Below are positions 17,687 through 46,054 of a stretch of 64,000 nucleotides of DNA, piece after piece. The position numbers and the translations under genes are program-made. The first letter of the stretch is position 1. Each line of letters opens with the position of its first letter. The DNA lies in IMG/VR virus record IMGVR_UViG_3300020417_001527, positions 21,790-85,789 of that record; one strand, given 5' to 3'. The notes beneath the pieces are model-generated. The model was not told the DNA's origin. It worked only from the letters and a program-made list of their open reading frames with translations, and ran no database searches. The DNA is from a virus.

Positions 17687-19060
17687 CTACTCACACTTTA
17701 TCCCTAGTCCTCGTACCTGATTGTTCCAGGCACTCTGTGCAAATGGTCCTTTGCCTTCATAGGCACGTTTGTAATACCATTTCTCACTGCCATGCTTTTC
17801 TCTTTCGCTGTAGTCCAAACCCAAGGTGTATTCCATAACATAGTAGTCTGCCAATGGGTGTATATACCTTCTTTCATGATCTGTGCTATAGCCACGTATT
17901 CTAAATACTTTGTGATGCAGGCAACCTACATTGACCAAACAGTTTCGTTGATACTGTTTGTCTGTGCTGGTCCAGAAACCCCAACGATCCAGCGTTTCTC
18001 GTACATCATCAACAATGCGTTTCCAAGCCATTTCTGCCATTACCTCATCACGTTCAAACTGGTCACTGAAACTACTGCAATTTAGAGTTGTGGTTTTAAA
18101 ATTTTCAACATGACTACACATCATGCTGGCAATTTCTTCCGCTTTCCATTCTCCATATCTGTTTACATAGTAGCTCAGTCTTTTACCGGCTTCTCCATAA
18201 CTAATTATGTTCCCAACTTCACCGGTTATTACTGTGCCGTCTATTTTGTGTCTGTTCATGGTTTGATACTTTACCAGCCATGATGAATCGTTAAATTCAT
18301 ATTCCAATGGCGGATCATACGCAGGTGGCTTTATGTTGGCTTGTACATTTACAGGTGCAATACCTATCATTTCACCATTAAAAAGTGCATCGTGATATTC
18401 ATTGTGTTTGCCTTTTTTATGTGTTATGGTGTAAAAGTCTATGTGTTTTTGATATCCTAATTGTGCCAATGCTGAGGCAACCACAGCTGAATCTCTACCA
18501 CTGCTGAAAAGCATATTGATAGGCTGATCATAATACAATCTACGATCATAAATTTTTCTAATATTATTATCTAATAGCTCTTTGTATAGGTTGCCGTCCC
18601 ACACATAGCCTTTGGGTCGTGCAATGTCTGAGTATCTATGCTGTACACCATTGTGTACATAATGTTCTGGTTTAACTGTGAGAATATCATCATATGGTGT
18701 GTGTTCGCCTATAGCATAACAAAAACCAAACATAGAACGCTGTAATTCATACACACCATTTTTAATTCTGTAGTGTGCATCCTTCATCGGGTGTGTAGCA
18801 TCTTGCACCCACAATGACAAGTTGTGAAATATTTTTTCTGTGTCTGTGTAGAATAGTGGAGTTTCTGCTAGATGATTTACACATGCCCACCAGTTATCAT
18901 CTTCAATGTAAACAAATGCAAAGGAACCACGCAGTTCAATGGGAAACTGACCTTGGCGTAAACTTTCATATACTATACCTGGTGATAGATTTGCATCACC
19001 CCACCAATAAAAGTCTGGGTACAGTTCTTCAAATTTGTTATGTTGATTTATGAATATCAA
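17687..19060 (-). CDS. Asparagine synthetase-like ATP-pyrophosphatase
   Basis: This 457-residue protein has the two-domain AsnB layout. Residues about 1-150 match the glutaminase-like domain (ELRGSFAFVY at 42-51, NHLAETPLFY at 62-71), but there is no Cys2, so glutamine hydrolysis is unlikely. Residues about 155-457 carry the PP-loop LFSSGRDSA (184-192) in place of LSGGLDSS. The AsnB GxGxDE segment is changed to TGEVGNIIS. Relatives without glutaminase activity activate a carboxylate as an AMP ester for amide or ring formation, as in beta-lactam synthetase and lasso-peptide cyclase. Its frame opens at TTG 19060, overlapping the radical SAM gene by 23 bases. Confidence 0.7.
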   Translation of the reverse strand: MIFINQHNKFEELYPDFYWWGDANLSPGIVYESLRQGQFPIELRGSFAFVYIEDDNWWACVNHLAETPLFYTDTEKIFHNLSLWVQDATHPMKDAHYRIKNGVYELQRSMFGFCYAIGEHTPYDDILTVKPEHYVHNGVQHRYSDIARPKGYVWDGNLYKELLDNNIRKIYDRRLYYDQPINMLFSSGRDSAVVASALAQLGYQKHIDFYTITHKKGKHNEYHDALFNGEMIGIAPVNVQANIKPPAYDPPLEYEFNDSSWLVKYQTMNRHKIDGTVITGEVGNIISYGEAGKRLSYYVNRYGEWKAEEIASMMCSHVENFKTTTLNCSSFSDQFERDEVMAEMAWKRIVDDVRETLDRWGFWTSTDKQYQRNCLVNVGCLHHKVFRIRGYSTDHERRYIHPLADYYVMEYTLGLDYSEREKHGSEKWYYKRAYEGKGPFAQSAWNNQVRGLGIKCE

Positions 19061-20204
19061 ACGTTTTATCTCCAGGCCATAATGGCAGTTGAGTACCAGG
19101 TGCTCGTTTTGGTATTTTTGAGTCAGCTGAACTTACACAACTATCACTGATGCATGGCATTGGAGTATCGAACAGATTGAAACCTGTTTCTATGTTGCCG
19201 AGCGGAACATCCGCACAACTGTAGGAACGTTTGATACTTCCGTCAGGCTCTCGGATAATAATACTACGATATCCTGCACTACATTCCCATCCTTTAAATT
19301 TGTTAAAGTTAAACGCATTGAATCTCTCTGCTTGATCCATGTACCATGTTTCACCATTGGCATCTTTGAATTCAACCTGCATGTTCCACGGAACAGATTT
19401 GTCGTCTCGTTGATCTATTTCTGTGGGAATTTGAAACTGTGGTCTTGGACGGTCACTCCAAACAGCTTTCGTGTCGGTGTAGGCTCTTTGCGGCATTCCG
19501 TTGTAGAGTCGCTTGAGCATATCCCTAGTGTATCCATCAACCACTTTTGACGCAGTCGGATCCGACTGGGGTTTAAGTGTGACGTTGATTCCTTGTTCGT
19601 GGAAGAAGAGGGCGTTGTCCCAGTCTCGTTCAAATTGGTCGGGAACCATAACCATGTTAATGGTAATCTGTACATCGTGTTCTTGACACAGGATAAGTTT
19701 GTCGGCAAACTCCTGCATCTTCTCCTTTGTGTTTACGTGTTCAACGTGTAGACTACTAGTTATGCTCGCACGATGAAGTGGTTTTACTATTTCCACATAC
19801 TGCTCAAACCATTTTAATGGCCTTGAACAGTTTGACGTCATGTGGACACTAGTATAATTAGTGTTGCTGACATCAGAAGCCAAATGCCCAAGGATGTCCA
19901 AGTATCCTGGGTGGAAAGTAGGCTCACCGCCAGATAAAGAAAAATGAAAACTGTTAAAATTATTAGCACGAGCTTGTCTTTTTATCTCATCGATCGTAGC
20001 ATTAATGAGGTGTGTGGGCCTGTGATCTTTTTTATCTGATCTGGCGTATGGCCAACAATAACTGCAACGGTAATTGCAAAAGCGACCAAGAAGCCAACTG
20101 ACAGTAAACATGTCTCTATAGAGCATCGTTCTTTGACCCACCCTAACAAGTTCGTCAAAAGGTATTTTAGTAAAGTCATAATCGCTCCATTTTAGTTCTG
20201 ACAA
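19038..20204 (-). CDS. Radical SAM protein with C-terminal Cys-rich domain
   Basis: This 388-residue protein has C43-x3-C47-x2-C50 (RFCNYRCSYC) for the radical SAM cluster, SLSGGEPTFHPGY at the SAM site, and a C-terminal region with several cysteines (WECSAGY, YSCADV, PCISDSC) able to hold an auxiliary cluster. It is related to the protein at 37829-38848, which shares CNY-x-CSYC, SGGEPT and a W-W/F-E-x-Y region. The codons look richer in G and C (for example 19440-19700) than neighbouring genes, which may mean a different history. It precedes the AsnB-like gene. Reaction unknown. Confidence 0.82.
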   Translation of the reverse strand: MSELKWSDYDFTKIPFDELVRVGQRTMLYRDMFTVSWLLGRFCNYRCSYCWPYARSDKKDHRPTHLINATIDEIKRQARANNFNSFHFSLSGGEPTFHPGYLDILGHLASDVSNTNYTSVHMTSNCSRPLKWFEQYVEIVKPLHRASITSSLHVEHVNTKEKMQEFADKLILCQEHDVQITINMVMVPDQFERDWDNALFFHEQGINVTLKPQSDPTASKVVDGYTRDMLKRLYNGMPQRAYTDTKAVWSDRPRPQFQIPTEIDQRDDKSVPWNMQVEFKDANGETWYMDQAERFNAFNFNKFKGWECSAGYRSIIIREPDGSIKRSYSCADVPLGNIETGFNLFDTPMPCISDSCVSSADSKIPKRAPGTQLPLWPGDKTFDIHKST

Positions 20205-20215
20205 AAGTTAAACTC

Positions 20216-21771: not shown

Positions 21772-22783
21772 AGTCTACTGTGGCTCCTATTAAATCTATT
21801 ACAGTTTGTTCTGACAGTTGATTTGCTTTATCCTCTGCAAAATATAAATCAACGAGTGTTTCAAACACTTCATACTCGTGTGGTTGTATTGATAAAAAGT
21901 CACACACATCTTGATATGTGCCTTCATAGTCTTTGTCACGTAACATTGCAAGTAAATCTATTTTAAGTTCTGGCACTGGCAAAGGTATTGTGTATTTGTT
22001 TATTTGTTCATCTGCTATTTCAGATTGCCATTTATCCATCATGGTTGTCATGGTTGCATCTATATTGAATTTCATTGAAGCATGTGTGATTGCAATAACC
22101 AATTTATACCATGTCCATGGTTTACCCATATATTCTAACAGAGCAAGACAGCGTTCTTTATCCATGTCACTATGCTGTTTGACTTTTTTTGCAAATTTGT
22201 TTTCAAACTCATCCATGTAATCTTCGTGTGTGTTGTATTCATGAAACCAAATCTTTTTTATTATATTAGAAACAAACTGTGGCCAAGTGTCTGCATCTTT
22301 GGTATTCAAACAGGTAATCACTCGAAAACTTTTAAATTGCTGTGGCCACATGTGTACTTCGCACCATGCTTCGTGTGATCGTGTGATGGTTTGTGTTGTA
22401 CGATAGCGTTGTAATTTTTCTCTCAGTGTGTGTTCACGACTGGCTTCAATGGCATTAGCAATCGCTTTTTTATAGTATGCTTCTGATCCATCATAGTCAT
22501 CTGTGTTCCAATAATCATTTCTGTATTGATTGCTAACTTTTGCAACAAGATCAGAATTAATACGCCAACGATTCTGTTTGTTTACTTTTTTGGCTCGCAT
22601 GTCTGTGTTAAGATCTGCTAGATCTTCATGTGTTGCAAGGAAACCAGCAAACCATTCACCACCTGTACCTGCTGTGTAATTTACAACTATTTGATCTTGA
22701 TCAACATGATGTTCAGTCCAACGCCAGAAGTCTGAATTATCATCTTTGAATTCTGTCAAGAGAGATTTCATTGATATTGACAT
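21752..22783 (-). CDS. Sulfotransferase-like P-loop protein, large
   Basis: The product is 343 residues. After a 30-residue lead comes IVVNYTAGTGGEWFAGFL (32-49), a glycine-rich loop after a strand as in sulfotransferase-type P-loops; TRSHEAWCEVHMWP and SFRVITCLNTKD follow at the usual next positions. The C-terminal third is helical and acidic (CDFLSIQPHEYEVFETLV). No classical PAPS 3'-phosphate motif is clear. Start ATG 22783 or 22771; the gene overlaps the SDR by about 40 bases, long for this genome. The call is tentative. Confidence 0.4.
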   Translation of the reverse strand: MSISMKSLLTEFKDDNSDFWRWTEHHVDQDQIVVNYTAGTGGEWFAGFLATHEDLADLNTDMRAKKVNKQNRWRINSDLVAKVSNQYRNDYWNTDDYDGSEAYYKKAIANAIEASREHTLREKLQRYRTTQTITRSHEAWCEVHMWPQQFKSFRVITCLNTKDADTWPQFVSNIIKKIWFHEYNTHEDYMDEFENKFAKKVKQHSDMDKERCLALLEYMGKPWTWYKLVIAITHASMKFNIDATMTTMMDKWQSEIADEQINKYTIPLPVPELKIDLLAMLRDKDYEGTYQDVCDFLSIQPHEYEVFETLVDLYFAEDKANQLSEQTVIDLIGATVDYAGTHT

Positions 22784-23294
22784 TTGAAGGTGCCTCTACT
22801 ATCCATTTTACATAACTGGCCGCATCGGGTATGCTCATGCATTTGCGTCCAGGGTGTTTGTCTTCATTGTTTTCTAGTGTGCCAAAACTGATAAGGCTAA
22901 CACGTGGCACAGTTTTTTCACTCCACACACTCTGTAATGCCAGTGATTGACAGTAGCTCTGCAGAGCTTTCTTTTCCTGTTGGTATATCCACGAGCTACC
23001 TTTGGTAACTCTGTCCACAGTACTGCCAATACACACAATATGTAGTGATTTTCCTGCCGTTTCTGCCAACTTCCATACTAGTTCTAGTAGTAGTGATTGG
23101 CGAAAGTGCCATAATGCACTATTATTAATAAAAACATCGTACTCAATGGCCTTTTTTGCTACTGCTTCCATATTCATTCTAGTTTCTAAGTCGCAACCAC
23201 TGTCACGACTGACAAAGTCAGCTTTAGGAAACACAGATGCAAGTCCTTTAGCCAATCCCTCTTTGGGATTGCCTGTGATAAAAATTGATTTCAT
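22740..23294 (-). CDS. Short-chain dehydrogenase/reductase (SDR)
   Basis: SDR enzymes oxidise or reduce alcohols and ketones with NAD(P)H. This 184-residue protein is shorter than typical (about 250) but keeps the ordered motifs: an N-terminal strand and TGNPKEGLAKGL in place of TGxxxGxG, NNSA at 57-60, a serine strand IVCIGSTVDR (86-95) and the catalytic Y104-QQE-K108. The usual C-terminal substrate loop is reduced. It starts in an ATGA overlap with the upstream radical SAM gene, so it likely acts in the same pathway. Confidence 0.75.
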   Translation of the reverse strand: MKSIFITGNPKEGLAKGLASVFPKADFVSRDSGCDLETRMNMEAVAKKAIEYDVFINNSALWHFRQSLLLELVWKLAETAGKSLHIVCIGSTVDRVTKGSSWIYQQEKKALQSYCQSLALQSVWSEKTVPRVSLISFGTLENNEDKHPGRKCMSIPDAASYVKWIVEAPSNVNINEISLDRIQR

Positions 23295-24463
23295 ATATAA
23301 TCCTTGAATTCTGGCACAACATTAAGTATATTTTCTTTTCTGCTTTGGTCCAAAGTATGCGTGTACCTAACATACTCTGGCCAGCGATCACTCCAGTCTT
23401 CAGCCCACATATAATCTATGGTACTGTCCAGCTTTTCAACGCTGTAATTTTCCAAACGTTCAGTGGCCAACTGTTTAAGTTCTGGTGGCAACACTCTGAT
23501 GTTTAGATATTCTGGATGATTCAGTATATTCAGGTAAACAAATTTATCAAATTGTTGTACCCAATCAAACCATGTGTTTAAATGTAATATATTGTTTATC
23601 TGTACAGTGGTGTGTATTTGAACTCTCACACTTTTCATGTCTAGGAAACGTTTTAGATTTTTATCTACCAACTTCCAATTTGTAGGATAGCGTATGTAAC
23701 GATTTAAATCTCCATATGCGTCTATAGAACAGTTTAGTTTAACAGTTTTAAATCGATCCCAATAATCAATCATACGCTGTGGAATGTTTGTAAGGTTGGT
23801 GTTGTATTTTAAAATAATGTTTTCATTCAGCCCACGCTCAATGAGGTAATCAAACAGTTTGTACTGAGCTGTTGCAAGTGTGGGTTCACCACCTGTGAGG
23901 TAAACTTCTTCTATTGTGTCTGCAACATCAATTAAATTTTCCCAAGTCTTAGGTTTGTTGGGCCATGTCATTGTGTCTGTGTCCAAACGCTGTAGTTCTT
24001 CTTCGGGCAGAGGATCTTCAACCATGTTCCACTCATCTATCCATTGATTACTGGCGTATGGATTACACATTCTACATTTTAGATTACACAGGTTGCCCAA
24101 ACGTAGGTCAATGTACTGTGCTTTTGGTTCTGGTGTAATATCAGAATAGTCAGAATCAGCATTGTACCAACCTTCATTCCATGATTGCCTTGCTGATTTT
24201 ACTCCTGCGTCTTCTTCTCTAAAACAGCGTTCGCACATTTCAGGACGTTCTCCATTCAAAAACTGCTGACGTATTGTGGTCATTGTTTTGGAGTTCCATG
24301 CTTCACGTATGTCATGTTTGTGCAATTTGTATTTGCCACCATCTGGGTGTTCTAATCCGTTTTTGCCCGGAGTTGAATTACAACAGACACGCAGAGTGCC
24401 CGCGGCATTTGTGGCCACGTGCATCCAAGGTAACACACAGAATGTTTTGCTGGGCATGTTCAT
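23291..24463 (-). CDS. N-twitch radical SAM protein
   Basis: The 390-residue protein has an auxiliary Fe-S module before the catalytic core. C9 (FCVLPW), C27-C28 (VCC), C77-x2-C80 (MCERC) form the N-terminal twitch-like cluster site, then C126-x3-C130-x2-C133 (LCNLKCRMC) is the radical SAM triad, followed by LTGGEPTLA. This order matches the family called twitch domain-containing radical SAM protein (N_twi_rSAM). The C-terminus keeps SIDAYGDLNRYIRYP and NIRVLPPELK, repeated in the sister proteins. It is linked by ATGA to both neighbours. The substrate of the family is unknown to me. Confidence 0.88.
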   Translation of the reverse strand: MNMPSKTFCVLPWMHVATNAAGTLRVCCNSTPGKNGLEHPDGGKYKLHKHDIREAWNSKTMTTIRQQFLNGERPEMCERCFREEDAGVKSARQSWNEGWYNADSDYSDITPEPKAQYIDLRLGNLCNLKCRMCNPYASNQWIDEWNMVEDPLPEEELQRLDTDTMTWPNKPKTWENLIDVADTIEEVYLTGGEPTLATAQYKLFDYLIERGLNENIILKYNTNLTNIPQRMIDYWDRFKTVKLNCSIDAYGDLNRYIRYPTNWKLVDKNLKRFLDMKSVRVQIHTTVQINNILHLNTWFDWVQQFDKFVYLNILNHPEYLNIRVLPPELKQLATERLENYSVEKLDSTIDYMWAEDWSDRWPEYVRYTHTLDQSRKENILNVVPEFKDYI

Positions 24464-25431
24464 ATAAAGTTCCTGTAGTCAGTTCCGTGTATGCTGTCTA
24501 ATATTTCACTTTGTTCTATCAACTGTTGTTTTAATTCTTCGTCTTCTAGTGCCGTTGGTCGCATAAATGCAGGGTTTATCACAGGCGTAGACACAGAATG
24601 TTCAAGTCTGTGCAGAGTGCACCAGCGTGTCACATCATCGATGTTGTTCCTGTTAAACACCATTGGCAATATACTCACAAACAAATGTGTATTGGCAGGT
24701 TTGCGTTTATTGAATTGTAACACATTCTGTTGTGTGGTCAACCAACTTGATCCTGCACGTATAAATTCATATCTACTTCCTATTGCATCAATGCTGACAT
24801 TAACTGTAACAGATTTAAACTTTTTAAACAGACTGTTCCATGCTGTTATGTCATGAGATCCATTTGTAATAATTTCTAGCGTAACTGCTGGTGCTATATC
24901 TTCTTCTATGAGTGTTTCAATTATGCGTTTTACTTGAGGTATCATAAAAGGTTCACCACCAGTGAACTTTACTGTTCGAGCATCATACATCAACTCAGTG
25001 AACGATTCAGCTTCTTTGGCCCAGCGTGTGTCATGTTTGTGAGTGTAGTATTCTGCCAATTCCTGTTCGCCAACGTTGCGAACAATGTTTGCCCATGTAC
25101 TAGAGCTGGTTTGGTTACACATTCTACAAGCAAAATTACAGGTGTTGTTTATTTTCAAATCCCAAAAATTTATGCCATCTGCATGTTCTAGTATTTTATT
25201 GTAATGTGTTCTCAAACTTGCTCCGGTTTGTTGTTCTGATATTCTACATTCTTCACATTCATCTAGCCAAGAAGTCTTACTTTGTTCACACCATTCTGCA
25301 TGTCGTGTTTGCCAATCATCTTTCCAATATAGATTTGCTGTTCCTTCTTTAACATTAAATGCACAACATGGCCTCACAGCACCTGTGGGTCCAATGGTAA
25401 CACCATGTTTAAATATCAAGCATTCCGCCAC
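24460..25431 (-). CDS. N-twitch radical SAM protein (compact)
   Basis: This smaller relative (323 residues) has C4, C22-C23 (RPCC), C59-x2-C62 (ECEEC) for the N-terminal cluster and C98-x3-C102-x2-C105 (CNFACRMC) for the catalytic cluster, with FTGGEPFMIPQ at the SAM site and NVSIDAIGSRYEFIRAG as in sister proteins. The first cysteine is much nearer the start than in the others, as if the leading strand is lost. Coding overlaps the Asp/Asn-hydroxylase-like gene by 23 bases upstream and the next radical SAM gene by ATGA. Confidence 0.86.
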   Translation of the reverse strand: MAECLIFKHGVTIGPTGAVRPCCAFNVKEGTANLYWKDDWQTRHAEWCEQSKTSWLDECEECRISEQQTGASLRTHYNKILEHADGINFWDLKINNTCNFACRMCNQTSSSTWANIVRNVGEQELAEYYTHKHDTRWAKEAESFTELMYDARTVKFTGGEPFMIPQVKRIIETLIEEDIAPAVTLEIITNGSHDITAWNSLFKKFKSVTVNVSIDAIGSRYEFIRAGSSWLTTQQNVLQFNKRKPANTHLFVSILPMVFNRNNIDDVTRWCTLHRLEHSVSTPVINPAFMRPTALEDEELKQQLIEQSEILDSIHGTDYRNFI

Positions 25432-26164
25432 GTCTTTTATAACTTTCTACACATCTATCTTTGAAGTAATCACCCATGCCGCCATCCACAATCATGTGTA
25501 TGCGTGGAGTATCACTGCGATTCCAAACAGCATGATTATAGTGTGTATTGATTTTCATTATAGCACCAGGTTCAAATGGCATGGTACCCCAGTTTTCCAT
25601 AACCAATGCACAACCGTCTGGATTGTTTACAGCAATGTTTGTAGCACCAAAACCTTGTCTGTCTTTGTCTGAGTGTGGTCCAATCCAACCACCAGGCAGT
25701 AGTATCATAAAACGTACACGAGTATAATCTTCATAGCGTAAATGGTTTTCCATAAAGTCCACAGTCTTTGGACAAAATTTTGCAATGTCTGTCCAATGTG
25801 AATCTGTTTCTTCATAGTCATCGGGTAACCCGTAATCATCTGCACAGTTGGTGTGTACAGAACTGATGCCATGTATACACAAACTCATCCATCCAGCAGA
25901 TTGTGGACGATGATATGTAAAGCAGGCTGTGTCTAGTAGGTGCATGGCTTCAGCAAGTATACCTTCGTGATCCATTTCAATGTCATCAACACGTAGCCAT
26001 GGATTGGTACAATGATCCAACATCAAATCGTTGTCTTCTGGATCGTTTACCAGCAAAGGATCGTATGTATGTTCTTTGCTGAGAGATTCGTTTTTCTCAA
26101 AAAACTCTTGTGTGTAATCATTTGCTTCCACATTTTGTGGAATGCTGTAACCTTCTAACCACAT
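25409..26164 (-). CDS. Aspartyl/asparaginyl beta-hydroxylase-like 2OG oxygenase
   Basis: The 251-residue product matches the AspH-type Fe(II)/2OG fold in its C-terminal half. RFMILLPGGWIGPHSD (151-166) contains H164-x-D166; then NIAVNNPDGC, W-G-T-M-P-FEPG, the distal histidine H211 in YNHAVWNRSD, and R221 in RIHMIVD. The AspH family hydroxylates Asp/Asn or amino-acid-like substrates. The N-terminal 90 residues are specific to this protein. It begins with its ATG overlapping the PEP carboxykinase stop (TAATG). Residues fit an active enzyme. Confidence 0.82.
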   Translation of the reverse strand: MWLEGYSIPQNVEANDYTQEFFEKNESLSKEHTYDPLLVNDPEDNDLMLDHCTNPWLRVDDIEMDHEGILAEAMHLLDTACFTYHRPQSAGWMSLCIHGISSVHTNCADDYGLPDDYEETDSHWTDIAKFCPKTVDFMENHLRYEDYTRVRFMILLPGGWIGPHSDKDRQGFGATNIAVNNPDGCALVMENWGTMPFEPGAIMKINTHYNHAVWNRSDTPRIHMIVDGGMGDYFKDRCVESYKRRGGMLDI

Positions 26165-33990: not shown

Positions 33991-35023
33991 CTCGTACCCA
34001 GTCGCTGGTTAAACAATGAATGCCACCATCCCAAAAGTATTGGTGCCTCCATTTCCAGTAAACTGTATCTATGCCACGTTTTTCTATAGCAGTACGAGCC
34101 TTTTTATCATCACCTGTTACAATAACAGTCTTTTCGTCAATGCTTAGTACATTGACGTCAAAAACGCTTTCGTCAGCATAACCAACCCAATGTGAAAGCC
34201 ATTTGCTGACGTATTCTCTGTGGAACCTACGCTTTCGTGTATTTAAAAAATCTTCAGGCATATCGTGTGTATCTTCTATTTCAATGATATCCCAACTTTT
34301 AAGTTCATCAGGTATCCAATCACGATTCCAAGTCATTAACACACCTGGTTTAAGCAATGCAATTTTTCCATCTATGTGTCCGCCAACTCTAACATCTATG
34401 AACTTGGTGTTAGGATACAATCTTTTTGTTATACGTTCAATCCAAGCTCTGCCATAGTTTGTGCCTTTGCCTCGTTCATCATGTCTTTGATATGGCTGTG
34501 AACACAATATCACATCACCTAACTTGATCATGTTGGCGGCATGATATATCAACTTTAAGTCTTGTTCAAAGTCTATGTATTTTTGTCCTGTGTTAACCAT
34601 CACACCTGGCATACTGATCCAATCTCCTCCAATGAGCCAATTGGTTGTGTTTTCTCTATAATAGGCCATGTTTTCAAAGTAACGATTATCAGATCCTGTA
34701 AACATTTCAAACATTGTTTCTCCATATGGAAACAGCGTGTCACGTGGCATCAGTGGATGATTAGGATATCCACATTTCATCCAAGGCAAGTTAACTTGTT
34801 CTTCACCATTGATAGTAAATATGTTATCAGGACGAGTTACCATTACGTCAGCTGATTCAAGAATGCCCACAAGTGTTTGTAGGTCTTCTTCAGTTTCTTC
34901 AAATATTTGTCGCATAGATTCTCGCTGTTCGCGATTGCCATGCCAGTCAAATGTTTCTGGAGGATATGCTCTACCGAGCATTATTTGTTGTAGTGGCTGA
35001 AATTCAGTCCATGCATTTATCAT
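33965..35023 (-). CDS. Amidinotransferase (glycine amidinotransferase-like)
   Basis: These enzymes transfer the amidino group of arginine to an amine. The 352-residue product begins INAWTEFQPLQQIMLGRA, as AGAT/StrB enzymes do. It has RPDN, a central MPRDTLF-like segment, GGHIDGKIALLKPG with the catalytic histidine and its Asp partner, and GGIHCLTSD near the end with the nucleophile cysteine (C337). All catalytic elements are visible. Products of such enzymes include guanidinoacetate and guanidinylated natural products. It is the first gene of the minus-strand block, facing away from 35077-35907. Confidence 0.9.
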   Translation of the reverse strand: MINAWTEFQPLQQIMLGRAYPPETFDWHGNREQRESMRQIFEETEEDLQTLVGILESADVMVTRPDNIFTINGEEQVNLPWMKCGYPNHPLMPRDTLFPYGETMFEMFTGSDNRYFENMAYYRENTTNWLIGGDWISMPGVMVNTGQKYIDFEQDLKLIYHAANMIKLGDVILCSQPYQRHDERGKGTNYGRAWIERITKRLYPNTKFIDVRVGGHIDGKIALLKPGVLMTWNRDWIPDELKSWDIIEIEDTHDMPEDFLNTRKRRFHREYVSKWLSHWVGYADESVFDVNVLSIDEKTVIVTGDDKKARTAIEKRGIDTVYWKWRHQYFWDGGIHCLTSDWVRDGNCESYL

Positions 35024-35076
35024 TCTTGGTTAGACTCCTTGTATGATAATTATATATGTATTTAACGGAGATGTCA

Positions 35077-35907
35077 ATGCTAAAAACACAAATTGCAATA
35101 GATCCAGAAGCAAGATGCTCAAACAAACTGGATTATCATTACTATGGTCCAAATGATAACATCTATGATACCATGTATGAAGCATTTGAATCAGGTGAAC
35201 CTGTAATCATAGACGGTCACACAGTAGATGGTATTGACATGGACTATTATAGTAATTTACCTGAGTGGTACACAGACAAGAATGCTTGGGTGAAGCCATG
35301 GTATCTGTCAGATCTAAAACGTGAACCCATGCCTGCTAGTACCAAAGATATGGGATTAGACGGAGAAGAGTTTTTAAAACGACATAGAAAAGATCAAAAG
35401 CATTGGGACGCATTTTTTGATCAATGTTTTCCAAAATACACAGTAAATGCTCGTATGCTTTCGCACAGATACAATCAACTGGTGCAAAACAATCTGCACT
35501 TGGATTTGCCAGATGAAGAACACACAGGCAACGACCATCAAATACGCATGTTTCTAAATTTGGATCGTAAAAAGCCACGCATACTTGCATTCAGTTACAG
35601 CGTAGAACAGTATTTTAGATTGTACTATGATGAAAAAAGTCTTGACCAATTGGATAAAACCAACTATCATTCTTTTATAAAAGAACTGCGTGACAGATGT
35701 ATTTGGAACGAAGACAAATGGGATCAGTTTCATTTGCCACGCCATTACATTACGTTTCCTCCTGGCTCTATGTGGTTTTTTAATGCACAATGGATTTCAC
35801 ATCAAATTATATTTGGTAACAAACTGCAATGCTACGAAGCTGATATAGAAGTAGACAGTCTACAGTTTCCAGAACTAGGTGTGCCTAACAGAATTGCACA
35901 GCTATGA
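35077..35907 (+). CDS. 2OG-Fe(II) oxygenase-like protein
   Basis: I chose ATG 35077 because GGAG (35067-35070) lies 6 bases before it; ATGs at 35071 and 35056 are in frame. The 276-residue product has HLD at 141-143, RMFLNLDRKKPRILAFSY, and FPPGSMWFFNAQWISHQIIFG with a late histidine. This gives the HxD...H iron triad of a cupin/2OG fold. The N-terminal 100 residues have no motif. It is one of the few + strand genes in this part and is coupled by ATGA to the next gene. Confidence 0.55.
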   Translation: MLKTQIAIDPEARCSNKLDYHYYGPNDNIYDTMYEAFESGEPVIIDGHTVDGIDMDYYSNLPEWYTDKNAWVKPWYLSDLKREPMPASTKDMGLDGEEFLKRHRKDQKHWDAFFDQCFPKYTVNARMLSHRYNQLVQNNLHLDLPDEEHTGNDHQIRMFLNLDRKKPRILAFSYSVEQYFRLYYDEKSLDQLDKTNYHSFIKELRDRCIWNEDKWDQFHLPRHYITFPPGSMWFFNAQWISHQIIFGNKLQCYEADIEVDSLQFPELGVPNRIAQL

Positions 35908-36614
35908 TTTGGATTGTTTCTAAATCTGGCATGTCTGCACAATTTTTAGAAGCATGTATCAATAATGTAGATTTATGTTCAGACCAAAAGCATTATGATT
36001 TAATCCAAACACCATGTAAATTTGGATATTTTTTAGAACTTAATCACGATTGGGGAGGTACCTATGTGCCTTTAAAAAGGACAACCCAAGAAGCATGGAA
36101 CGATGAATGGTATGATGGATTTAGTCGTGCAAAAAGTATTGCTGAAAGCAAAGGACACAATGCTCTGTTTACACACAGGCATGATAAAGAACTTATTCAA
36201 TGGATGAAGGAAGCAGGAGACTCAGTAATTGTACTGCGACATGTAAATCATTTGCCACTGTGGATTTGTCGTGAATCTGTGCTAGATGAAAAGTATGAAA
36301 AGACTGTGGGCTACTTCTTACAAAAATTAAAAAGTCGTCTTATAGAATTAGATACAATGCCTGATCACATCAGCGAACAACCATATCTAGATCAGAACGA
36401 TTTTTTAACACTTGCTACCAGACAGTTACAAAAATTAGCACCCTGTATGGATATTGAACTTTTTAGACACAACTTGAATTACTATGTGCCAGCAAATTTA
36501 AAAGGCATTACAAAATGGGATATGATGACAGAAATAATAATCAAATATCATTCAAGTAATCCATTAATTGCATGGGGTTATGATGATTTAATCAACACTG
36601 ATCTCACTTTTTAA
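35904..36614 (+). CDS. Sulfotransferase-like P-loop protein (weak)
   Basis: This 236-residue protein opens with a strand and a turn, MIWIVSKSGMSAQFLEAC, placed as in the other P-loop-like proteins here, but with SGMS in place of a normal glycine loop. HNALFTHRHDKEL and SVIVLRHVNHLPLW follow at the positions where sulfotransferases have central strands. No catalytic residue can be named. It is coupled by ATGA to the oxygenase-like gene and its end overlaps the convergent radical SAM gene by 27 bases. Confidence 0.35.
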   Translation: MIWIVSKSGMSAQFLEACINNVDLCSDQKHYDLIQTPCKFGYFLELNHDWGGTYVPLKRTTQEAWNDEWYDGFSRAKSIAESKGHNALFTHRHDKELIQWMKEAGDSVIVLRHVNHLPLWICRESVLDEKYEKTVGYFLQKLKSRLIELDTMPDHISEQPYLDQNDFLTLATRQLQKLAPCMDIELFRHNLNYYVPANLKGITKWDMMTEIIIKYHSSNPLIAWGYDDLINTDLTF

Positions 36615-37832
36615 TCTTGCAAATTCAGGCGACACTTTCATAACATCATCATCTCTAAATTTATCATGCACTTCTGTAACACGCACATAGTCACGCATGT
36701 GACTTTCATTGTATATGTGTTTAGGATCTTCTGCAAAGTTTACACAATCCATTAGAGCTTCTTGCCAGGTTTCAAAGTGTTCGCTGTTGCCTATTTTGTG
36801 TAACAGCTTTTCTATTTTACGCTTTTGTTCTTTCTTTAACCAATCAGGTGCATGTTGCATACTGTAGTAGGCTGGCTCAATGAGTTGGTTACTGCTGAGT
36901 CCTATACCACGCTTCTGTGTTATTTGATAGTCATGTAAAAACTCAAAGAAGTCAGGCAGGTGTAGTGCGTTTGTAATTTGATTAACAGTGGTTACACGCA
37001 CCTTAATACGTTTGCCTGCTTTGGTACTTGCAAAGTCCATTAACTTGGTAAAGTTTTTCCAAACTGAATCCCAGTTGCTTGGAGGACGCAGATAATCATT
37101 CATAGCACCCATGCCTTCAAGTGAACAGTTTACCACAACACGTTTGAACTGTCCTAGTTGTTCTAGCCAACGATCCTGCATGTTTGTGATGTTTGTATAA
37201 AATGACAGTTCAATATTTTTTGCATAATCGTTTGCTGTGCAATAGTCCAACAGACGAAACATATCTGGAAAGACTGTGGGCTCACCACCAATCATTTTTA
37301 TTTCACGAGCATGTGGTATCATGGGTTCAAATGTGTTCCAATCAATGCCCGGTTGTAGCAGAGCTTCTTTTTTGTTGTCAGTTACACGTTCCCAGTCTTC
37401 ATGCTGTACAGGTGCACCATACTTTTCTTTTATTTTTGCACGTTCGACGCTAACCAAATGTGATGCATCTTTGTTGCACATTTGACAATGTAGGTTGCAC
37501 ATGTTACCCAAACGAAAGTCAAACTGCACAGGACTGGATACATTTTCATCTAGTGTTGCTGTGTAGTCTTGCCATTTTTGATTTTCCCATTGTCTACTCG
37601 ATCCAATACCATTGCGTTCCAAGTGTTGACATTCTGAGCATTCAGGCCTCCACTTGCCAGCCAACATGTCTTTGCGAACCTCTTTCATGTAATCAGAGTT
37701 CCATATTTGTTCCATGCTTAGATGATTTTGGTTTAATTCTTCAGCAGGTTCTTTGGCCATACAACAAAGTCTATAACGCCCATGGTTATAGGTGCTGTAC
37801 TGCACAAAAGGTAATGCACAGTAACCACTCAT
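36588..37832 (-). CDS. N-twitch radical SAM protein
   Basis: The product has 414 residues with the family layout: CALPFVQ and YRLCCMAKE for the N-terminal cluster, ECSECQH for the second pair, then CNLHCQMC as the radical SAM triad and MIGGEPTVFPDM at the SAM site. NCSLEGMGAMNDYLRPP replaces the SIDA segment. The gene starts in an ATGA overlap with the following radical SAM gene upstream and runs 27 bases into the convergent + strand gene. Substrate unknown. Confidence 0.86.
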   Translation of the reverse strand: MSGYCALPFVQYSTYNHGRYRLCCMAKEPAEELNQNHLSMEQIWNSDYMKEVRKDMLAGKWRPECSECQHLERNGIGSSRQWENQKWQDYTATLDENVSSPVQFDFRLGNMCNLHCQMCNKDASHLVSVERAKIKEKYGAPVQHEDWERVTDNKKEALLQPGIDWNTFEPMIPHAREIKMIGGEPTVFPDMFRLLDYCTANDYAKNIELSFYTNITNMQDRWLEQLGQFKRVVVNCSLEGMGAMNDYLRPPSNWDSVWKNFTKLMDFASTKAGKRIKVRVTTVNQITNALHLPDFFEFLHDYQITQKRGIGLSSNQLIEPAYYSMQHAPDWLKKEQKRKIEKLLHKIGNSEHFETWQEALMDCVNFAEDPKHIYNESHMRDYVRVTEVHDKFRDDDVMKVSPEFARLKSEISVD

Positions 37833-38848
37833 CGATGTTTCCTTGTACGCATGTCAGTGGCATTCATACAGCGTGGCTGTTCACAGATGTAAGGCTCAGT
37901 GGGCCAATTTAGTTTATCCAATTGATCCAATCTACCTATCTTATCTGGGTGTGACCAATTGGCCTGTGGACACCATGATCCTGCTGTAATTTCTTTGAAC
38001 TGATTAATAAAAATTTTATCTATACCTATGTAACATTTCATGCCTGTAAAAACATTATGATTTTGATTTATGTTTCTGTTTGCATGTAGTAGTTCTTCTT
38101 TGCCATCGCTGTATGTAATTATGTGTGGCACACCTATACGCTTTGGTTTGGCTCTAGGCAATGTCCATTCAGAATTATATGTGTTAAACAGAGCATAAGT
38201 TTGTAATATGTGTTCCTGTTCTTCTGTGTAAGGATAACTTTTAGCACCAAATTCAATTCGCATACGCTTGAGGCTCACTGGATAACCATTGCTGTTACTG
38301 GCTAATAATTCAGCACATGCAATAGACTTATCCCAAAGCTCGGGCAGTATAGCAACCAGCACATTTAGTTCATTTACGCCTGGTTTATAGAATGTGTGTG
38401 CTACATCTAGTAGGTGTTCTGGGTCGCACGATTCAATATGCACACTTAGATTAACTGTGTCAATTAGATCTCCGTAACGTTCCCACCAACGCACGGTGCG
38501 TGATCCATTTGTAATTACGCTGATTAAATTTTCTGTATTGTGTTTTTTGATGGCTTGCAAAAACTTATTAAAGTTTGGCATCACAGTTGGCTCACCTCCA
38601 CTCAACACATACTGTATGGGTCGCTGAAAATGATTGTGCATTGCATCCAGTATTTCCAACCATTTGTCTTCTGTGGGCCATGGTTGTTTGCCGTCATGCA
38701 ACGGAGGAGGACAATATGAACAAGCATAGTTACAGGTTGTACCCATGCTCCAATCTACAAGTGCAATATTCTTCTGTGGTACAATGCTGACAATATCAGG
38801 CAAATTGTTCTGCAAATGCATCAAATTTGTCTCCACACTTCTGAGCAC
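37829..38848 (-). CDS. Radical SAM protein with C-terminal Cys motifs
   Basis: The 339-residue product lacks the N-terminal twitch and resembles 19038-20204. It has TCNYACSYCPPP, LSGGEPTVMPNFNKF at the SAM site, VRWWERYGDLID, and late cysteines in MKCYIGID, SWCPQ, YICEQPRC that may hold an auxiliary cluster. Unlike its relative it is not next to an AsnB-like gene. The start may be ATG 38848 or ATG 38821; the latter shortens the overlap with the upstream gene to 26 bases. Confidence 0.83.
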   Translation of the reverse strand: MLRSVETNLMHLQNNLPDIVSIVPQKNIALVDWSMGTTCNYACSYCPPPLHDGKQPWPTEDKWLEILDAMHNHFQRPIQYVLSGGEPTVMPNFNKFLQAIKKHNTENLISVITNGSRTVRWWERYGDLIDTVNLSVHIESCDPEHLLDVAHTFYKPGVNELNVLVAILPELWDKSIACAELLASNSNGYPVSLKRMRIEFGAKSYPYTEEQEHILQTYALFNTYNSEWTLPRAKPKRIGVPHIITYSDGKEELLHANRNINQNHNVFTGMKCYIGIDKIFINQFKEITAGSWCPQANWSHPDKIGRLDQLDKLNWPTEPYICEQPRCMNATDMRTRKHR

Positions 38849-39893
38849 ACACTCCTAGTTTACCAGATTTAATACTGTCTTTGTTCCAACTGTTTTTTAT
38901 ACTACCAAGTATACCACTTTCAAAAACTGTTTCTAGTCCGTGTACTTTACAATCAATGACATCTTTGCCACCTACACCATCTATGTGATCCCAAATTTGT
39001 TCTACTTTAGGATCCAACTGCCACCATTTGTACATGCGTCCTGCTGTCCAACAGCAAGGCAACAGCAATCCTTCTGCTGTGATATAGATGTTCTTTTCTT
39101 CTGCTACCTTGCATTTAATTTTACATGAATCGTAATAATCCATCATTGAACCAAATTGATTTTTAATTTCTTCTTCTTTGGCAAGTGCTTTGTTTTGATA
39201 TGCTTCATTTTTTGGTTTTGCCAGAGTTGCAGTATCTTCGCCTTTTCTGTTCTGTGCTTGATGTGTTTCTTTGCCTGTGTTTTTTGCTGTACTAAAAAAC
39301 CTGCCAGTTTTCTTTGCTCTAAACTTTTCAAAACCCCAAGCCATTGCCATGCCTTCTGCGTCTTCCACTTGATGTTCATTGTAGTCAAATATGATGTAAT
39401 CCCATCTAGCTCTACCACCTGCATCTATAAAACTTGTAAATGAACGCTCTACAATATCCCAACGCACATTCTGTCTGTACATGTGATTTGTGTCTTCAAG
39501 TCCATCCAATGAGAATATAACTGCACCCATACGACCATAAACTCGTGCAAGTTCACGCCACCAATCTGGATCTTTTGCTCCGCCGTTTGTGTTCATGCTC
39601 AGCCAAATTTTAGGATTGTGTTGTCTAAAGTATTCAAATATTTCTAGTGTGTCACGTGCCACAATAGGATCACCCAAGTTGCCACACATATACATTGTAT
39701 TAAGTTGTTGTATAAATTTTGGTTCAAATATTGCTTTAGCATCATCTAGTGTAAGTTCAGCATTTGTGATATGTCGATTGTCGCGACCGCCATTTTCATT
39801 GCGATCACACATAGGGCAAGCCGCCTGGCACCTTTGTGTAACTTCCAAATGTACCATTTTAATATCGTTGTAGCTATACACTTTGTTTACCAA
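38796..39893 (-). CDS. Radical SAM protein with fused C-terminal SPASM-like domain
   Basis: The 365-residue product has TQRCQAACPMC for the catalytic cluster and GNLGDPIVARD at the SAM site, the same variant (GDP in place of GEP) as 8856-10238, 41678-42364 and 52825-53856. A lysine-rich linker (about 200-250) leads to a C-terminal auxiliary domain with CKIKC, LLLPCCW and GVCAQKC. The frame opens at TTG 39893; ATG 39857 is also possible. It shows that core and auxiliary domains can be in one chain in this group. Confidence 0.84.
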   Translation of the reverse strand: MVNKVYSYNDIKMVHLEVTQRCQAACPMCDRNENGGRDNRHITNAELTLDDAKAIFEPKFIQQLNTMYMCGNLGDPIVARDTLEIFEYFRQHNPKIWLSMNTNGGAKDPDWWRELARVYGRMGAVIFSLDGLEDTNHMYRQNVRWDIVERSFTSFIDAGGRARWDYIIFDYNEHQVEDAEGMAMAWGFEKFRAKKTGRFFSTAKNTGKETHQAQNRKGEDTATLAKPKNEAYQNKALAKEEEIKNQFGSMMDYYDSCKIKCKVAEEKNIYITAEGLLLPCCWTAGRMYKWWQLDPKVEQIWDHIDGVGGKDVIDCKVHGLETVFESGILGSIKNSWNKDSIKSGKLGVCAQKCGDKFDAFAEQFA

Positions 39894-41379
39894 GCAACCT
39901 TTCTATAATTGCACTTTCATGTTTTTGTGTTTTGTTGTTAAACTGATCTACACTTATGATGCTGGGCTCATCATCCATCAACACAGCCATTTCTGGAAAT
40001 GTTTTACAGAAGTCTAAGTTTCTAGTTTTATCAATGAGTCGTATGTATTCTCTAAACTGTGGCATACGTCTGCTCCAGTCTTCACTTTTCATAAAATTGA
40101 TCATGCCACGCATACGTTCTATGCCGTGACTTGCATTCATAAAATCGTCCTTGGTTACTTTCCCTCGGTACCAACTTGGTATTCCTAATTCCCAATTTTC
40201 TTCCCACCATGTATAAAACTTTTCATACTTGATTTCTGTTTGCTGTTTGAACCATAATGGCAATGTCTTTACATTCAAAGGAGCAGGCCAATAAACAAAA
40301 TGTGTGTTCACACTTCCTGCTGAAAAAGGCCACATGTTTACTTTTGTAAAGCCTTGTTGCAGTTTCCATTTGAAAAAATCTGGCAGATAATATATGTTCA
40401 ATGCATTAACGGCACAGGCCAGAGTTACTTCAACATTGTCTGTGGTTTCGTTGTTAAGTTTCCATATCTGTCTAACTTGATGATTCCAATCGCTGGGGTA
40501 ACGTATGTAATCATTCATTGCACCTATGCTGTCTAAACTGTAATGAAAACGCACCAGTTTAAAATGACTCCACAGTTCAAACAAATCATCACGCCATTCA
40601 ACAGCATTTGAATTGTAACGCAGTTCTAAATTAGGTGCATGTCCACTTTCAATTATTTTTTCTAATATTGTGTAGTGTTCATCCATCACAGTTGATTCAC
40701 CACCAGCAAAATAAAGTTGTAGCATGTTTGGTATCTGTTTCCAAAACTGCTCCCAAAACTTGTCATTGCTTTTGTGCCAATTGTAACTGGCGTTAAAGTT
40801 TTTACCTTTGTTTTCCCAATTCCATATTTCTTTAAGTTCAGGATCTTTCAGTTGTGGATACATTTTGTTCCACTCTTTGACCCAACCTGATGAATCATGT
40901 GGTGAACACATAACACAGGCAAGTTGACATTTAGTACCCATACGCAAATCTATGTAACGCAGTTTGGTTGGTATGCTACCATCTGTTTCTGTTTCTTTGA
41001 GCATTTCATCAATATCAATGCGTTTGCTCCAATAGTTTGTTTCCCATTGGCGTTTGCTGTGATGTCCTGCATCTTCTTCTTTGTAGCACTTCATACAGGA
41101 AGGAGGTCGCTGTCCTTTCAACATCATCTGTCGTGTGCCACGCATGTACGAATTGTTCCACGAACTTTCAAGGTCAGAGTTGTTTAAATTGGCTGGTATA
41201 CCCTCCTCTGTACGCAGTACACCCACCTGTCCTCCAAACTCTTTGTCGTTGGTTACACCAACACTACTGGCGTTTGCTGTACAGCATACACGCATAGCAC
41301 CGTCAGGACGAGTGCTTAAATGTATCCATGGCAACACACAAAATGTATCGCTGGGTGGTGTAAAACGTTTCTTGGTCAT
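39874..41379 (-). CDS. N-twitch radical SAM protein (long)
   Basis: At 501 residues this is the largest family member in the window. FCVLPWIHLSTRPDG and MRVCCTAN start the N-terminal cluster, SCMKCYKEED is the second pair, CQLACVMC the radical SAM triad and FAGGESTVMDEHY the SAM site, with S in place of P after GGE. HYSLDSIGAMNDYIRYP is the family segment. The extra length is spread between the triad and the SAM loop and at the C-terminus (KTQKHESAIIERLLGKQ). Upstream it faces the split radical SAM pair. Confidence 0.86.
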   Translation of the reverse strand: MTKKRFTPPSDTFCVLPWIHLSTRPDGAMRVCCTANASSVGVTNDKEFGGQVGVLRTEEGIPANLNNSDLESSWNNSYMRGTRQMMLKGQRPPSCMKCYKEEDAGHHSKRQWETNYWSKRIDIDEMLKETETDGSIPTKLRYIDLRMGTKCQLACVMCSPHDSSGWVKEWNKMYPQLKDPELKEIWNWENKGKNFNASYNWHKSNDKFWEQFWKQIPNMLQLYFAGGESTVMDEHYTILEKIIESGHAPNLELRYNSNAVEWRDDLFELWSHFKLVRFHYSLDSIGAMNDYIRYPSDWNHQVRQIWKLNNETTDNVEVTLACAVNALNIYYLPDFFKWKLQQGFTKVNMWPFSAGSVNTHFVYWPAPLNVKTLPLWFKQQTEIKYEKFYTWWEENWELGIPSWYRGKVTKDDFMNASHGIERMRGMINFMKSEDWSRRMPQFREYIRLIDKTRNLDFCKTFPEMAVLMDDEPSIISVDQFNNKTQKHESAIIERLLGKQSV

Positions 41380-41387
41380 ACTATTAT

Positions 41388-41681
41388 TTACTGATTCATT
41401 TTCTCTACACGCATTGACTTACTGCAATTTTCAACACACAATGGAGGTGGTGTAGTGTTCCAATTATCTGTGTTCCAATGCTCTGTGAAAGGTTTGCTTT
41501 TTAATATAGCAGTCAATTTGTGTTTGTTAATATCATTCCAATCGCTGGGCAGATTATCTATGTAGTCGTCTCCTGTACAGCCAAATCTATTTGCGGCCGC
41601 ACTATAAAAACAGCAAGGCCATACACGACCTTCTGTGTCTAATTTTATTTCTTTTTCACGCAGAGCTAGACAATCAATCAT
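41388..41681 (-). CDS. Stand-alone SPASM/twitch-like Fe-S domain protein
   Basis: The product is a 97-residue homologue of 10235-10564. Cysteines lie at 4, 23-24 (VWPCC), 35, 82 and 86 (LCVENC), with YIDNLPSDWND (40-50) matching YIDSLPADWND of the other. It lacks a radical SAM triad. It follows the catalytic-core gene 41678-42364 by ATGA, so core and auxiliary cluster are made as separate chains from one message. In 38796-39893 and 52825-53856 the same domain is fused to the core. Confidence 0.65.
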   Translation of the reverse strand: MIDCLALREKEIKLDTEGRVWPCCFYSAAANRFGCTGDDYIDNLPSDWNDINKHKLTAILKSKPFTEHWNTDNWNTTPPPLCVENCSKSMRVEKMNQ

Positions 41682-42364
41682 TGCAATATGCTCCGTGCTT
41701 GTTCTATCATATCGTTTGCCTTTGATATATTTGCATCAGCAATCAATCCATATTCTCTATCTTGGAATTTAAAATCAATGCCTATGTTATACTGTTTAGC
41801 AATTCTGGCCGCTTCTGGTATCTGTTGCCAGTTCCAATCAAATATAAGAAAGTCCCATGAACAACCTCCTTCATGACAATGTTGTGCAAATGTTATCATG
41901 TTATCCATTGCACGTTCAAAGTTAACTCGCTTTCTGTACAGATCATTTACTTCTGCTGTGGTTCCATCTATAGAAAAAACCAAGTGTCCAAACGGATCTA
42001 ATGTTTCTGCTAGTTTAACATAGAAGTCTTTGTTTCGCAAGCCTCCATTTGTGTGAACAAGAACTGTGTTTTCCTGTCTGTGTCTAACATAACGAATAAT
42101 ATCAAATATCTGTGGGTGCATCATTGGATCGCCAAATTCACCACACAATTTTATTTTGTAATCTTTGCCATGTGGAATATTATTTTTGATCCATCGTATA
42201 ACAGTTTCAAATGGAACATGTTCCATGCTCAGCAGTTCACAAGTTTTAAAAGGAGTTTTGAAAAAATCTTCAAATCTACCACAGCTCGGACAACCGGCTT
42301 GGCATTGATTTGTTATGTAAACATCTAATACTTTTAGTTGTTCACGCCAGTCAATATTAGACAT
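41678..42364 (-). CDS. Radical SAM core protein without auxiliary domain
   Basis: The 228-residue product is a bare radical SAM core: TNQCQAGCPSC with C21, C25 and C28, CGEFGDPMMHPQ (74-85) at the SAM site and LVFSIDGTTAEVNDLYRKR. It aligns along its length with the C-terminal half of the oxygenase/radical-SAM fusion at 8856-10238 (CGEHGDPMMHP, FAIDGLTQETNEKYR). The gene starts with an 8-base overlap (ATGTCTAA) on an oxygenase-like gene, so an oxygenase stands next to it as a separate gene rather than as a fused domain. Confidence 0.85.
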   Translation of the reverse strand: MSNIDWREQLKVLDVYITNQCQAGCPSCGRFEDFFKTPFKTCELLSMEHVPFETVIRWIKNNIPHGKDYKIKLCGEFGDPMMHPQIFDIIRYVRHRQENTVLVHTNGGLRNKDFYVKLAETLDPFGHLVFSIDGTTAEVNDLYRKRVNFERAMDNMITFAQHCHEGGCSWDFLIFDWNWQQIPEAARIAKQYNIGIDFKFQDREYGLIADANISKANDMIEQARSILQ

Positions 42365-44802: not shown

Positions 44803-44812
44803 AACATTTCCT

Positions 44813-45868: not shown

Positions 45869-45871
45869 AGT

Positions 45872-46054
45872 TTACCTTTCTTCTACTTGTATAATTGATG
45901 GTTTACACCAGGCAGAGTAACGTCCTGCCAATCTATCACTTTCGCGATTAATCATTTTGGCATACCAACTGCATTTCTGCATGTTAGGATACTCAATTTG
46001 ACCTTCTGTTTCTTGTCCATTCATTAGCATTAATATGAAAACCAATTTATCCAA
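45872..46054 (-). CDS. Small protein with hydrophobic start and Cys pair (60 aa)
   Basis: The protein starts MDKLVFILMLMNGQETEG, a short hydrophobic stretch like an uncleaved signal, and continues MQKCSWYAKMINRESDRLAGRYSAWCKP. The two cysteines are spaced about 22 apart. It is similar in plan to 17487-17684 and 59359-59577. It sits where a TctB gene would stand between tctA and tctC in bacterial operons, but it is far too short and has only one hydrophobic segment, so I do not call it TctB. TAATTATAAT-like spacing separates it from pyrF by no bases. Confidence 0.5.
   Translation of the reverse strand: MDKLVFILMLMNGQETEGQIEYPNMQKCSWYAKMINRESDRLAGRYSAWCKPSIIQVEER

Follow-up and report, generated by a model that had tools for sequence, protein, structure and literature searches.

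Radical SAM enzymes clustered within a conserved gene frame in an uncultured aquatic phage: a possible pathway to modified glycans

We examined a 64,000-nucleotide stretch of DNA (the window), positions 21790-85789 of the 85,789-bp IMG/VR record IMGVR_UViG_3300020417_001527, whose source is an uncultured aquatic phage. The interval 19038-42364 of the window (window coordinates are used unless stated, and genes are named by their first position) is crowded with genes for radical S-adenosylmethionine (SAM) enzymes, which perform difficult C-H chemistry. All genes named in the initial annotation of this DNA are present in their places. Of the twelve radical SAM proteins it had counted in the interval, eleven are cores with intact SAM sites (CX3CX2C kept in 11 of 11), while the twelfth, 41388 (41388-41681, minus strand; PF13186 9.3e-5), is only an auxiliary, a stand-alone SPASM protein, a division that the annotation had itself given. 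Matches to PF04055 were above the cut-off for 19038, 23291, 24460, 29574, 30731, 32734, 36588, 37829, 38796 and 41678. The match of 39874 fell below it (E 1e-4), yet this protein is a strong member of the NCBIfam family of N-terminal-twitch radical SAM proteins, NF033640. We assigned membership of NF033640 to proteins scoring above the curated cut-off of 170 bits, with an N-terminal set of cysteines and the CX3CX2C core. The seven twitch proteins proposed initially all belong: 39874 (39874-41379, 411 bits), 23291 (23291-24463, 399.5 bits), 36588 (36588-37832, 306.5 bits; PF04055 6e-8), 29574 (29574-30752, 301 bits), 32734 (32734-33990, 253 bits), 30731 (30731-31951, 239 bits) and 24460 (24460-25431, 187 bits). 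The cysteine columns are invariant in their alignment, and five further proteins elsewhere in the record also pass the cut-off. The other cores of the interval are 19038 (19038-20204, PF04055 3.2e-15) and 38796 (38796-39893, 5.3e-9), both with a cysteine-rich C-terminus, 37829 (37829-38848, 5.5e-15) and 41678 (41678-42364, 1.8e-9), the last without a SPASM domain. All eleven lie on the minus strand.

The previous total of fourteen cores in the window also holds when three genes outside the interval are added. The first, 8856 (8856-10238, plus strand), carries a 2-oxoglutarate (2OG)-Fe(II) oxygenase-like domain fused to a radical SAM core with the motif CQSKCPTC (PF13640 1e-4 and PF04055 4.8e-6, both below cut-off). 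The second, 52825 (52825-53856, minus strand), is related to 38796, has relatives in 26 loci and matches PF04055 at 1.5e-4; these two matches are weak, with the motifs intact. The third, 57537 (57537-58436, minus strand; phrog_2076 1.4e-50), is a QueE-like radical SAM protein of the 7-deazaguanine pathway lying apart from the cluster, in which a long insert separates CX3C from the third cluster cysteine. Seven more cores lie in the 21.8 kb to the left of the window, giving 21 in the 85.8-kb record.

The N-terminal-twitch paralogues share only 20-32% identity with 39874, yet several of the eleven cores have orthologues of 57-87% identity in other viruses, and for this reason we regard the cores as old, separate lineages rather than recent duplications. 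Ten cores or SPASM proteins had an orthologue of at least 40% identity in related contigs, and against these the ratio of non-synonymous to synonymous differences (pN/pS) was 0.13-0.44, with synonymous divergence (dS) saturated; such ratios indicate that these proteins are kept by selection. A scan found proteins like 39874 in 28 viral loci, and 24 of these records were then searched for radical SAM cores. All 24 contained the same kind of cluster, with 2 to 23 cores each and with members of NF033640 among them, so that the co-occurrence in other viral contigs raised by the initial annotation is borne out. Given the intact motifs, the pN/pS ratios and this recurrence, the cluster is not due to chance.

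The same relatives bear on the nature of the DNA. The major capsid protein of T4-type phages, Gp23, was identified in 7 of the 13 cluster-sharing records checked (strongly in six), which are up to 343 kb long, and CobT/CobS-like and further non-radical-SAM phage genes are common to the window and the Gp23-bearing relatives. Because most radical SAM enzymes of the cluster have orthologues in viral contigs, several with T4-type Gp23, the source DNA is that of a phage and not a bacterial chromosome, as first proposed; it is probably a T4-type, and probably a jumbo, aquatic phage. Were the contig instead bacterial or chimeric, carrying an ordinary biosynthetic cluster, one could point to the lack of Gp23 on the 85.8-kb source record, itself a fragment, and to the presence of three of the core genes in bacterial chromosomes as well (see below). 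However, a second record of 80 kb has the same sequence and runs beyond it, the phage families phrog_1314, 1297, 107 and 2076 were matched on the source contig, and the same genes are found in hundreds of viral contigs. The capsid-bearing relatives with the same cluster have already largely refuted this explanation, and we find it scarcely credible.

Comparison of the neighbourhoods showed that the enzymes form an ordered frame with variable inserts and not a random pile. The fixed order is a carbamoyltransferase, a glycosyltransferase (c1), a methyltransferase (c5, sometimes c9), a protein of ∼74 amino acids (c8), two radical SAM proteins (c2, which is 38796, and c0, which is 39874), variable cassettes and a third radical SAM protein (c4, which is 19038). 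The first four frame genes occupy 1.4-8.2 kb of the window, on its plus strand, and the remainder 19-42 kb, on the opposite (minus) strand. The first gene (1390-2952) encodes a NolO/TobZ-type carbamoyltransferase (phrog_1601 1.9e-96) with orthologues of 48-60% identity in 8 related loci. The next, c1 (5735-6439), is predicted to be a glycosyltransferase since it combines a GT-A fold with a DxD motif. Its AlphaFold2 model has a predicted local distance difference test (pLDDT) score of 90.7, the Foldseek matches in the PDB are WrtF (an O-antigen fucosyltransferase, ranked first), SunS and RmlT with probabilities of 0.99-1.00, and the aspartates D57 and D59 of the DxD are invariant. Some relatives carry c1-type domains in tandem, in proteins of up to 1381 amino acids; in one related phage (L024:1-4143) the 1381-residue protein, with about six tandem GT-A-like domains, heads the frame. 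The c5 protein (6436-7383), seen in 22 related loci, has a class I SAM-methyltransferase fold (Foldseek matches to BioC and other methyltransferases at 1.6e-8) in a model with a mean pLDDT of 66 whose C-terminal domain is mostly at 70-97. Sequence-profile searches of the PDB with c1 and c5 gave no match, and only the fold comparison was informative. Homologues of c8 (7956-8237) occupy the same position in ∼20 viral loci, and c0 was present in every related locus.

The cassettes between the anchors vary from phage to phage and include other radical SAM proteins, 2OG oxygenases, amidinotransferase, PP-loop and dehydrogenase-like proteins. Within and beside this part of the window, all on the minus strand unless noted, we identified an asparagine-synthase-like amidotransferase (17687-19060, PF00733 5.6e-7) and, adjoining c4, a dehydrogenase-like protein (22740-23294; a short-chain dehydrogenase/reductase by eye) whose orthologues of 42-46% identity also lie beside c4 in loci L013, L029, L038 and the bacterial L128. 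Between the twitch genes are an Asp/Arg beta-hydroxylase-like oxygenase (25409-26164, PF05118 4.6e-14), a homologue of the ATP-type phosphoenolpyruvate carboxykinase that keeps the P-loop (26164-27363, PF01293 5e-91; nearest phage records at 34-35%), and a 507-residue protein without a Pfam match (27363-28886) that has relatives of 27-29% identity within other viral clusters. Further along are a possible pyridoxal-phosphate-dependent aminotransferase-fold protein (31854-32765), seen by eye with a PF00155 match that is not significant (E 0.08), the amidinotransferase 33965 (33965-35023), and a 2OG oxygenase-like protein resembling Kdo hydroxylase (35056-35907, plus strand; PF11004 E 0.0019, below cut-off). 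We assign 33965 to the pentein amidinotransferases from a profile match to PDB entries across the catalytic domain (HsvA 2e-31, SxtG 1e-25, the StrB-type inosamine-phosphate enzyme of streptomycin synthesis 1bwd 2e-25, and AGAT) and a conserved C-terminal GGIHC seen by eye. Sugar-nucleotide genes also surround the cluster: a UDP-glucose dehydrogenase (record positions 12.0-12.7 kb), nucleotide-sugar epimerases, a DegT aminotransferase and a sugar-type C-methyltransferase.

The best NCBIfam radical SAM matches of 19038 and 37829 are prokaryotic viperin models (46-47 bits; PADLOC pVip 45-46 bits), which would suit anti-host or anti-phage enzymes making antiviral nucleotides. However, the NF038283 cut-off is 180 bits and about half of the model was covered, the other cores match viperin models more weakly, and a conserved operon with a glycosyltransferase and a methyltransferase is unlike viperin loci. 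With scores so far under the cut-offs we rejected a viperin or defence identity, and consider this function very improbable.

The frame is widespread. A scan with c1 found at least 588 viral loci; among the best 80 of these, 75 have radical SAM genes nearby and 54 the methyltransferase, and 30 of the 40 that span at least 15 kb contain three or more radical SAM genes. The c4 scan likewise gave 544 or more viral loci; identity was 72-82% among the top 80, and wherever full flanks were available (51 of 51 loci) 3 to 10 radical SAM genes lay within ∼19 kb. By contrast, c1, c5 and c4 had no tblastn match among 50,697 phage records, including those of the Campylobacter phages CP220 and CPt10. The frame is thus frequent among uncultured phages, whereas we did not recover it from any cultured phage. 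One single-cell-derived sequence, Marine virus AG-345-D19 (MH319727.1, our locus L228), contains the carbamoyltransferase (43%) and pieces of N-terminal-twitch radical SAM and amidinotransferase genes; its source cell could reveal a host.

Phages rich in radical SAM genes are already known, and the source phage is a further variant. CP220 and CPt10 encode 11 and 12 radical SAM proteins and have an interchangeable module of five such genes with an amidinotransferase (Timms 2010, PMC2853527). They are T4-related, as the source phage probably is, and resemble it in this module: isolate-phage homologues of 33965 come mainly from Campylobacter phages, that of CP220 matching over its full length at 25% identity, and sugar-transferase-like genes lie beside the CP220 module. 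The likeness, clustered radical SAM genes with a homologous amidinotransferase, is one of organisation and not of orthologous radical SAM proteins; those of CP220 are not above the NF033640 cut-off and are fewer in a larger genome. Pelagimyophages carry radical SAM cassettes in a hypervariable, glycosyltransferase-rich host-recognition island between VrlC and gp14 that also holds tail fibres (PMC7029224). As in the source phage, the island (HTVC008M, Mosig) combines glycosyltransferases and radical SAM cassettes with a carbamoyltransferase, Asp/Arg hydroxylases, an aminotransferase and an epimerase. It differs in having far fewer radical SAM genes and no NF033640 member in Mosig, in that none of c1, c5 and c4 was found there, and in its tail fibres, none of which was located beside the source cluster. 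Vibrio jumbo T4-type phages KVP40 and K566 have N-terminal-twitch proteins related to 23291, in K566 as a tight mini-cluster, but only three to five of them at 20-25% identity and without the anchor glycosyltransferase, methyltransferase or c4.

Radical SAM enzymes with SPASM or twitch domains are most often peptide maturases, and most of the weak NCBIfam matches of the cluster are to maturases. The substrate of these enzymes could thus be a precursor peptide, or a protein of the virion, modified in the manner of a ribosomally synthesised and post-translationally modified peptide (RiPP), with c1 glycosylating the product as SunS, one of its fold matches, does a glycocin; the conserved c8 would be the candidate peptide. 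However, the interval is 99.8% coding, with genes overlapping head to tail and no unassigned short open reading frame, c8 is conserved along its whole length and lacks a variable core, none of the maturase models attains its cut-off, and neither precursor, protease nor exporter was recognised nearby in a search that was not exhaustive. Because of the high coding density and the missing precursor, RiPP maturation inside the interval is disfavoured, and we hold a RiPP-like product to be unlikely overall. The earlier remark that no precursor peptide is obvious agrees with this for the interval, where it was tested, rather than for the whole genome. Small cysteine-rich minus-strand reading frames at 10.1-11.9 kb of the record were considered as precursors and rejected, because two long reading frames run antisense to them on the plus strand.

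The radical SAM proteins of the frame have counterparts in bacteria. Genes like c0 (50-63% identity) were found in 22 genome contigs of up to 937 kb, mostly metagenome-assembled genomes of Bdellovibrionota, where c0, c2 and c4 occur together and c1 and c5 are each present in 9 of the 22 loci. Bdellovibrionota proteins are 52-63% identical to the c0 of the window, 39-49% to its c2 and 55-68% to its c4. Unlike the phage clusters, these loci are chromosomal, more scattered in order and strand, and usually poorer in accessory radical SAM genes; several adjoin GT2 glycosyltransferases and an AT3-SGNH acyltransferase. Among 241 Bdellovibrionota genomes sampled, c0 was found in 14, c4 in 16 and c2 in 16, with the trio in ∼6%. 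All 14 genomes with c0 have c4 (p 7e-21) and 13 of 14 have c2 (p 7e-18); when the seed genomes were dropped, c0 and c4 still co-occurred at p 5e-12, and co-occurrence among the three genes remained at p <2e-11. In trees of c4 and c0 most phage sequences fall within Bdellovibrionota grades, and a second, divergent viral group lies outside them. This placement, under a midpoint root that leaves the direction of transfer unproven and with some long branches, suggests a bacterial origin of the phage genes. Supposedly bacterial sequences inside the phage clade (L126, L130, L143 and L144) may be misbinned phage contigs. Near the cluster the window also encodes a fatty-acid-desaturase-like protein with histidine boxes (15711-16472), relatives of which lie near two bacterial core loci.

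We favour, with somewhat better than even confidence, a reading in which the region forms the variable portion of an extensive locus for glycan biosynthesis in a T4-type, probably jumbo, aquatic phage. We do so because the frame and its surroundings combine a GT-A fold whose best PDB match is an O-antigen fucosyltransferase, an invariant DxD, a methyltransferase fold, a carbamoyltransferase, an amidinotransferase and sugar-nucleotide genes; because the anchor order is fixed around variable inserts and the c1 loci are rich in radical SAM and methyltransferase genes; because the bacterial trio co-occurs in Bdellovibrionota and adjoins GT2 and AT3-SGNH genes; and because pelagimyophages hold radical SAM cassettes and glycosyltransferases in a host-recognition island. 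The initial annotation had called the cluster biosynthetic rather than replicative, a judgement we share, and had offered modified nucleotides, glycans or a small molecule as products. Of these the glycan is best supported, the O-carbamoyltransferase and the StrB/SxtG-like amidinotransferase being part of the evidence. Neither of the findings it had named as fatal to its view, a bacterial chromosome or a majority of cores with broken SAM sites, was borne out. Overall that interpretation stands in part; it had not taken in the known radical SAM-rich phages, the frame or its counterpart in Bdellovibrionota. In the pathway we envisage, c1 would add sugars to an acceptor, a virion fibre, a host envelope polysaccharide or DNA being candidates. 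By analogy with the twitch enzymes of aminoglycoside synthesis, the radical SAM enzymes with auxiliary Fe-S clusters would perform C-H chemistry on the sugar units (dehydrogenation, deoxygenation, epimerisation or C-C bonding), and carbamoyl, amidino, methyl, hydroxyl and other groups would finish them. Exchange of cassettes would then make the decoration differ from one phage to the next, which is what one would expect if it served to escape host receptors, restriction or superinfection by other phages.

Several observations weigh against a glycan product. The TM-scores of the c1 fold matches are ∼0.4, so that the fold class is clear and the donor and acceptor are not, and sequence searches of the PDB with c0 and c4 found no solved relative. 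None of these radical SAM enzymes could be assigned a substrate or product, polysaccharide genes are not evident at some of the bacterial core loci, and no tail-fibre gene was located adjoining the cluster in the source phage. The model of the T4 neck protein gp14 had no match in any record searched and is hence uninformative on a host-recognition-island position. The sugar-nucleotide genes and 2OG enzymes would, moreover, be compatible with hypermodified DNA or with a small molecule released free.

Known pathways of thymidine hypermodification include radical SAM enzymes, QueE is present in the genome and ThyA, CobT and CobS genes adjoin the cluster in relatives, all of which would suit a pathway building a nucleobase adduct (sugar, carbamoyl or amidino) that shields phage DNA from nucleases. 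Phage carbamoyltransferases of the 1390 family can also carbamoylate 5-hydroxymethylcytosine (PMC8670742). Such a pathway would be recognised by a hydroxymethylpyrimidine synthase together with a DNA-modifying transferase, and by altered nucleosides. The neighbouring ThyA in relatives keeps the canonical residues of a dUMP enzyme (by eye, with the criterion of PMC8670742), carbamoyltransferases beside glycosyltransferases are also found in unmodified contigs (PMC8670742), and in bacteria, where DNA protection by it is less expected, the trio resides on the chromosome, leaving DNA hypermodification distinctly unlikely. Quite unlikely, too, is a diffusible small molecule (an inhibitor resembling aminoglycosides, a signal or a cofactor) that would benefit phages and Bdellovibrionota alike as predators of bacteria. 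The core is common to both, and the enzyme mix resembles aminoglycoside-type tailoring, with an amidinotransferase nearest HsvA, SxtG and StrB-type enzymes, a carbamoyltransferase and radical SAM proteins. However, no exporter or resistance gene was recognised, the variability of the cassettes among phages points to a surface-type target, and the neighbours in bacteria are of polysaccharide type.

Beyond the cluster, 43732-48200 holds a gene resembling orotidine-phosphate decarboxylase together with genes for a TctA transporter (PF01970 1e-79) and two TctC-like secreted proteins, so that this phage may encode a tripartite tricarboxylate transporter; the TctC identity of 43732 and 44813 was assigned by eye, and a PDB profile search gave no TctC match. 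The PHROG label 'PurZ' for 61462-62670 is unsupported, as the protein starts with GTQWGDEGKGK like PurA and we have no evidence of a 2-aminoadenine genome.

A conserved core of glycosyltransferase, methyltransferase and three radical SAM proteins with a Bdellovibrionota counterpart seems undescribed: we did not find it in the literature searched, which covered few subscription papers. At 21 cores in 86 kb, the density of the record far exceeds that of CP220 and CPt10, for which 11-12 are reported. Through the conserved frame, what began as a curious number of genes becomes a pathway open to test, with five enzymes, a minimal version in Bdellovibrionota and natural variants among the phages. 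Tentatively, and at somewhat less than even confidence, we propose that this GT-A, methyltransferase and three-radical-SAM pathway, present in many uncultured aquatic jumbo phages and some predatory Bdellovibrionota, produces radically modified glycans of a new class, with combinatorial tailoring, and that the phages may have acquired the pathway from Bdellovibrionota-like bacteria. Should a glycan be made, the pathway would open a new way of diversifying sugars and add a new level to the defences between phage and host; a DNA-bound or diffusible product would be equally new.

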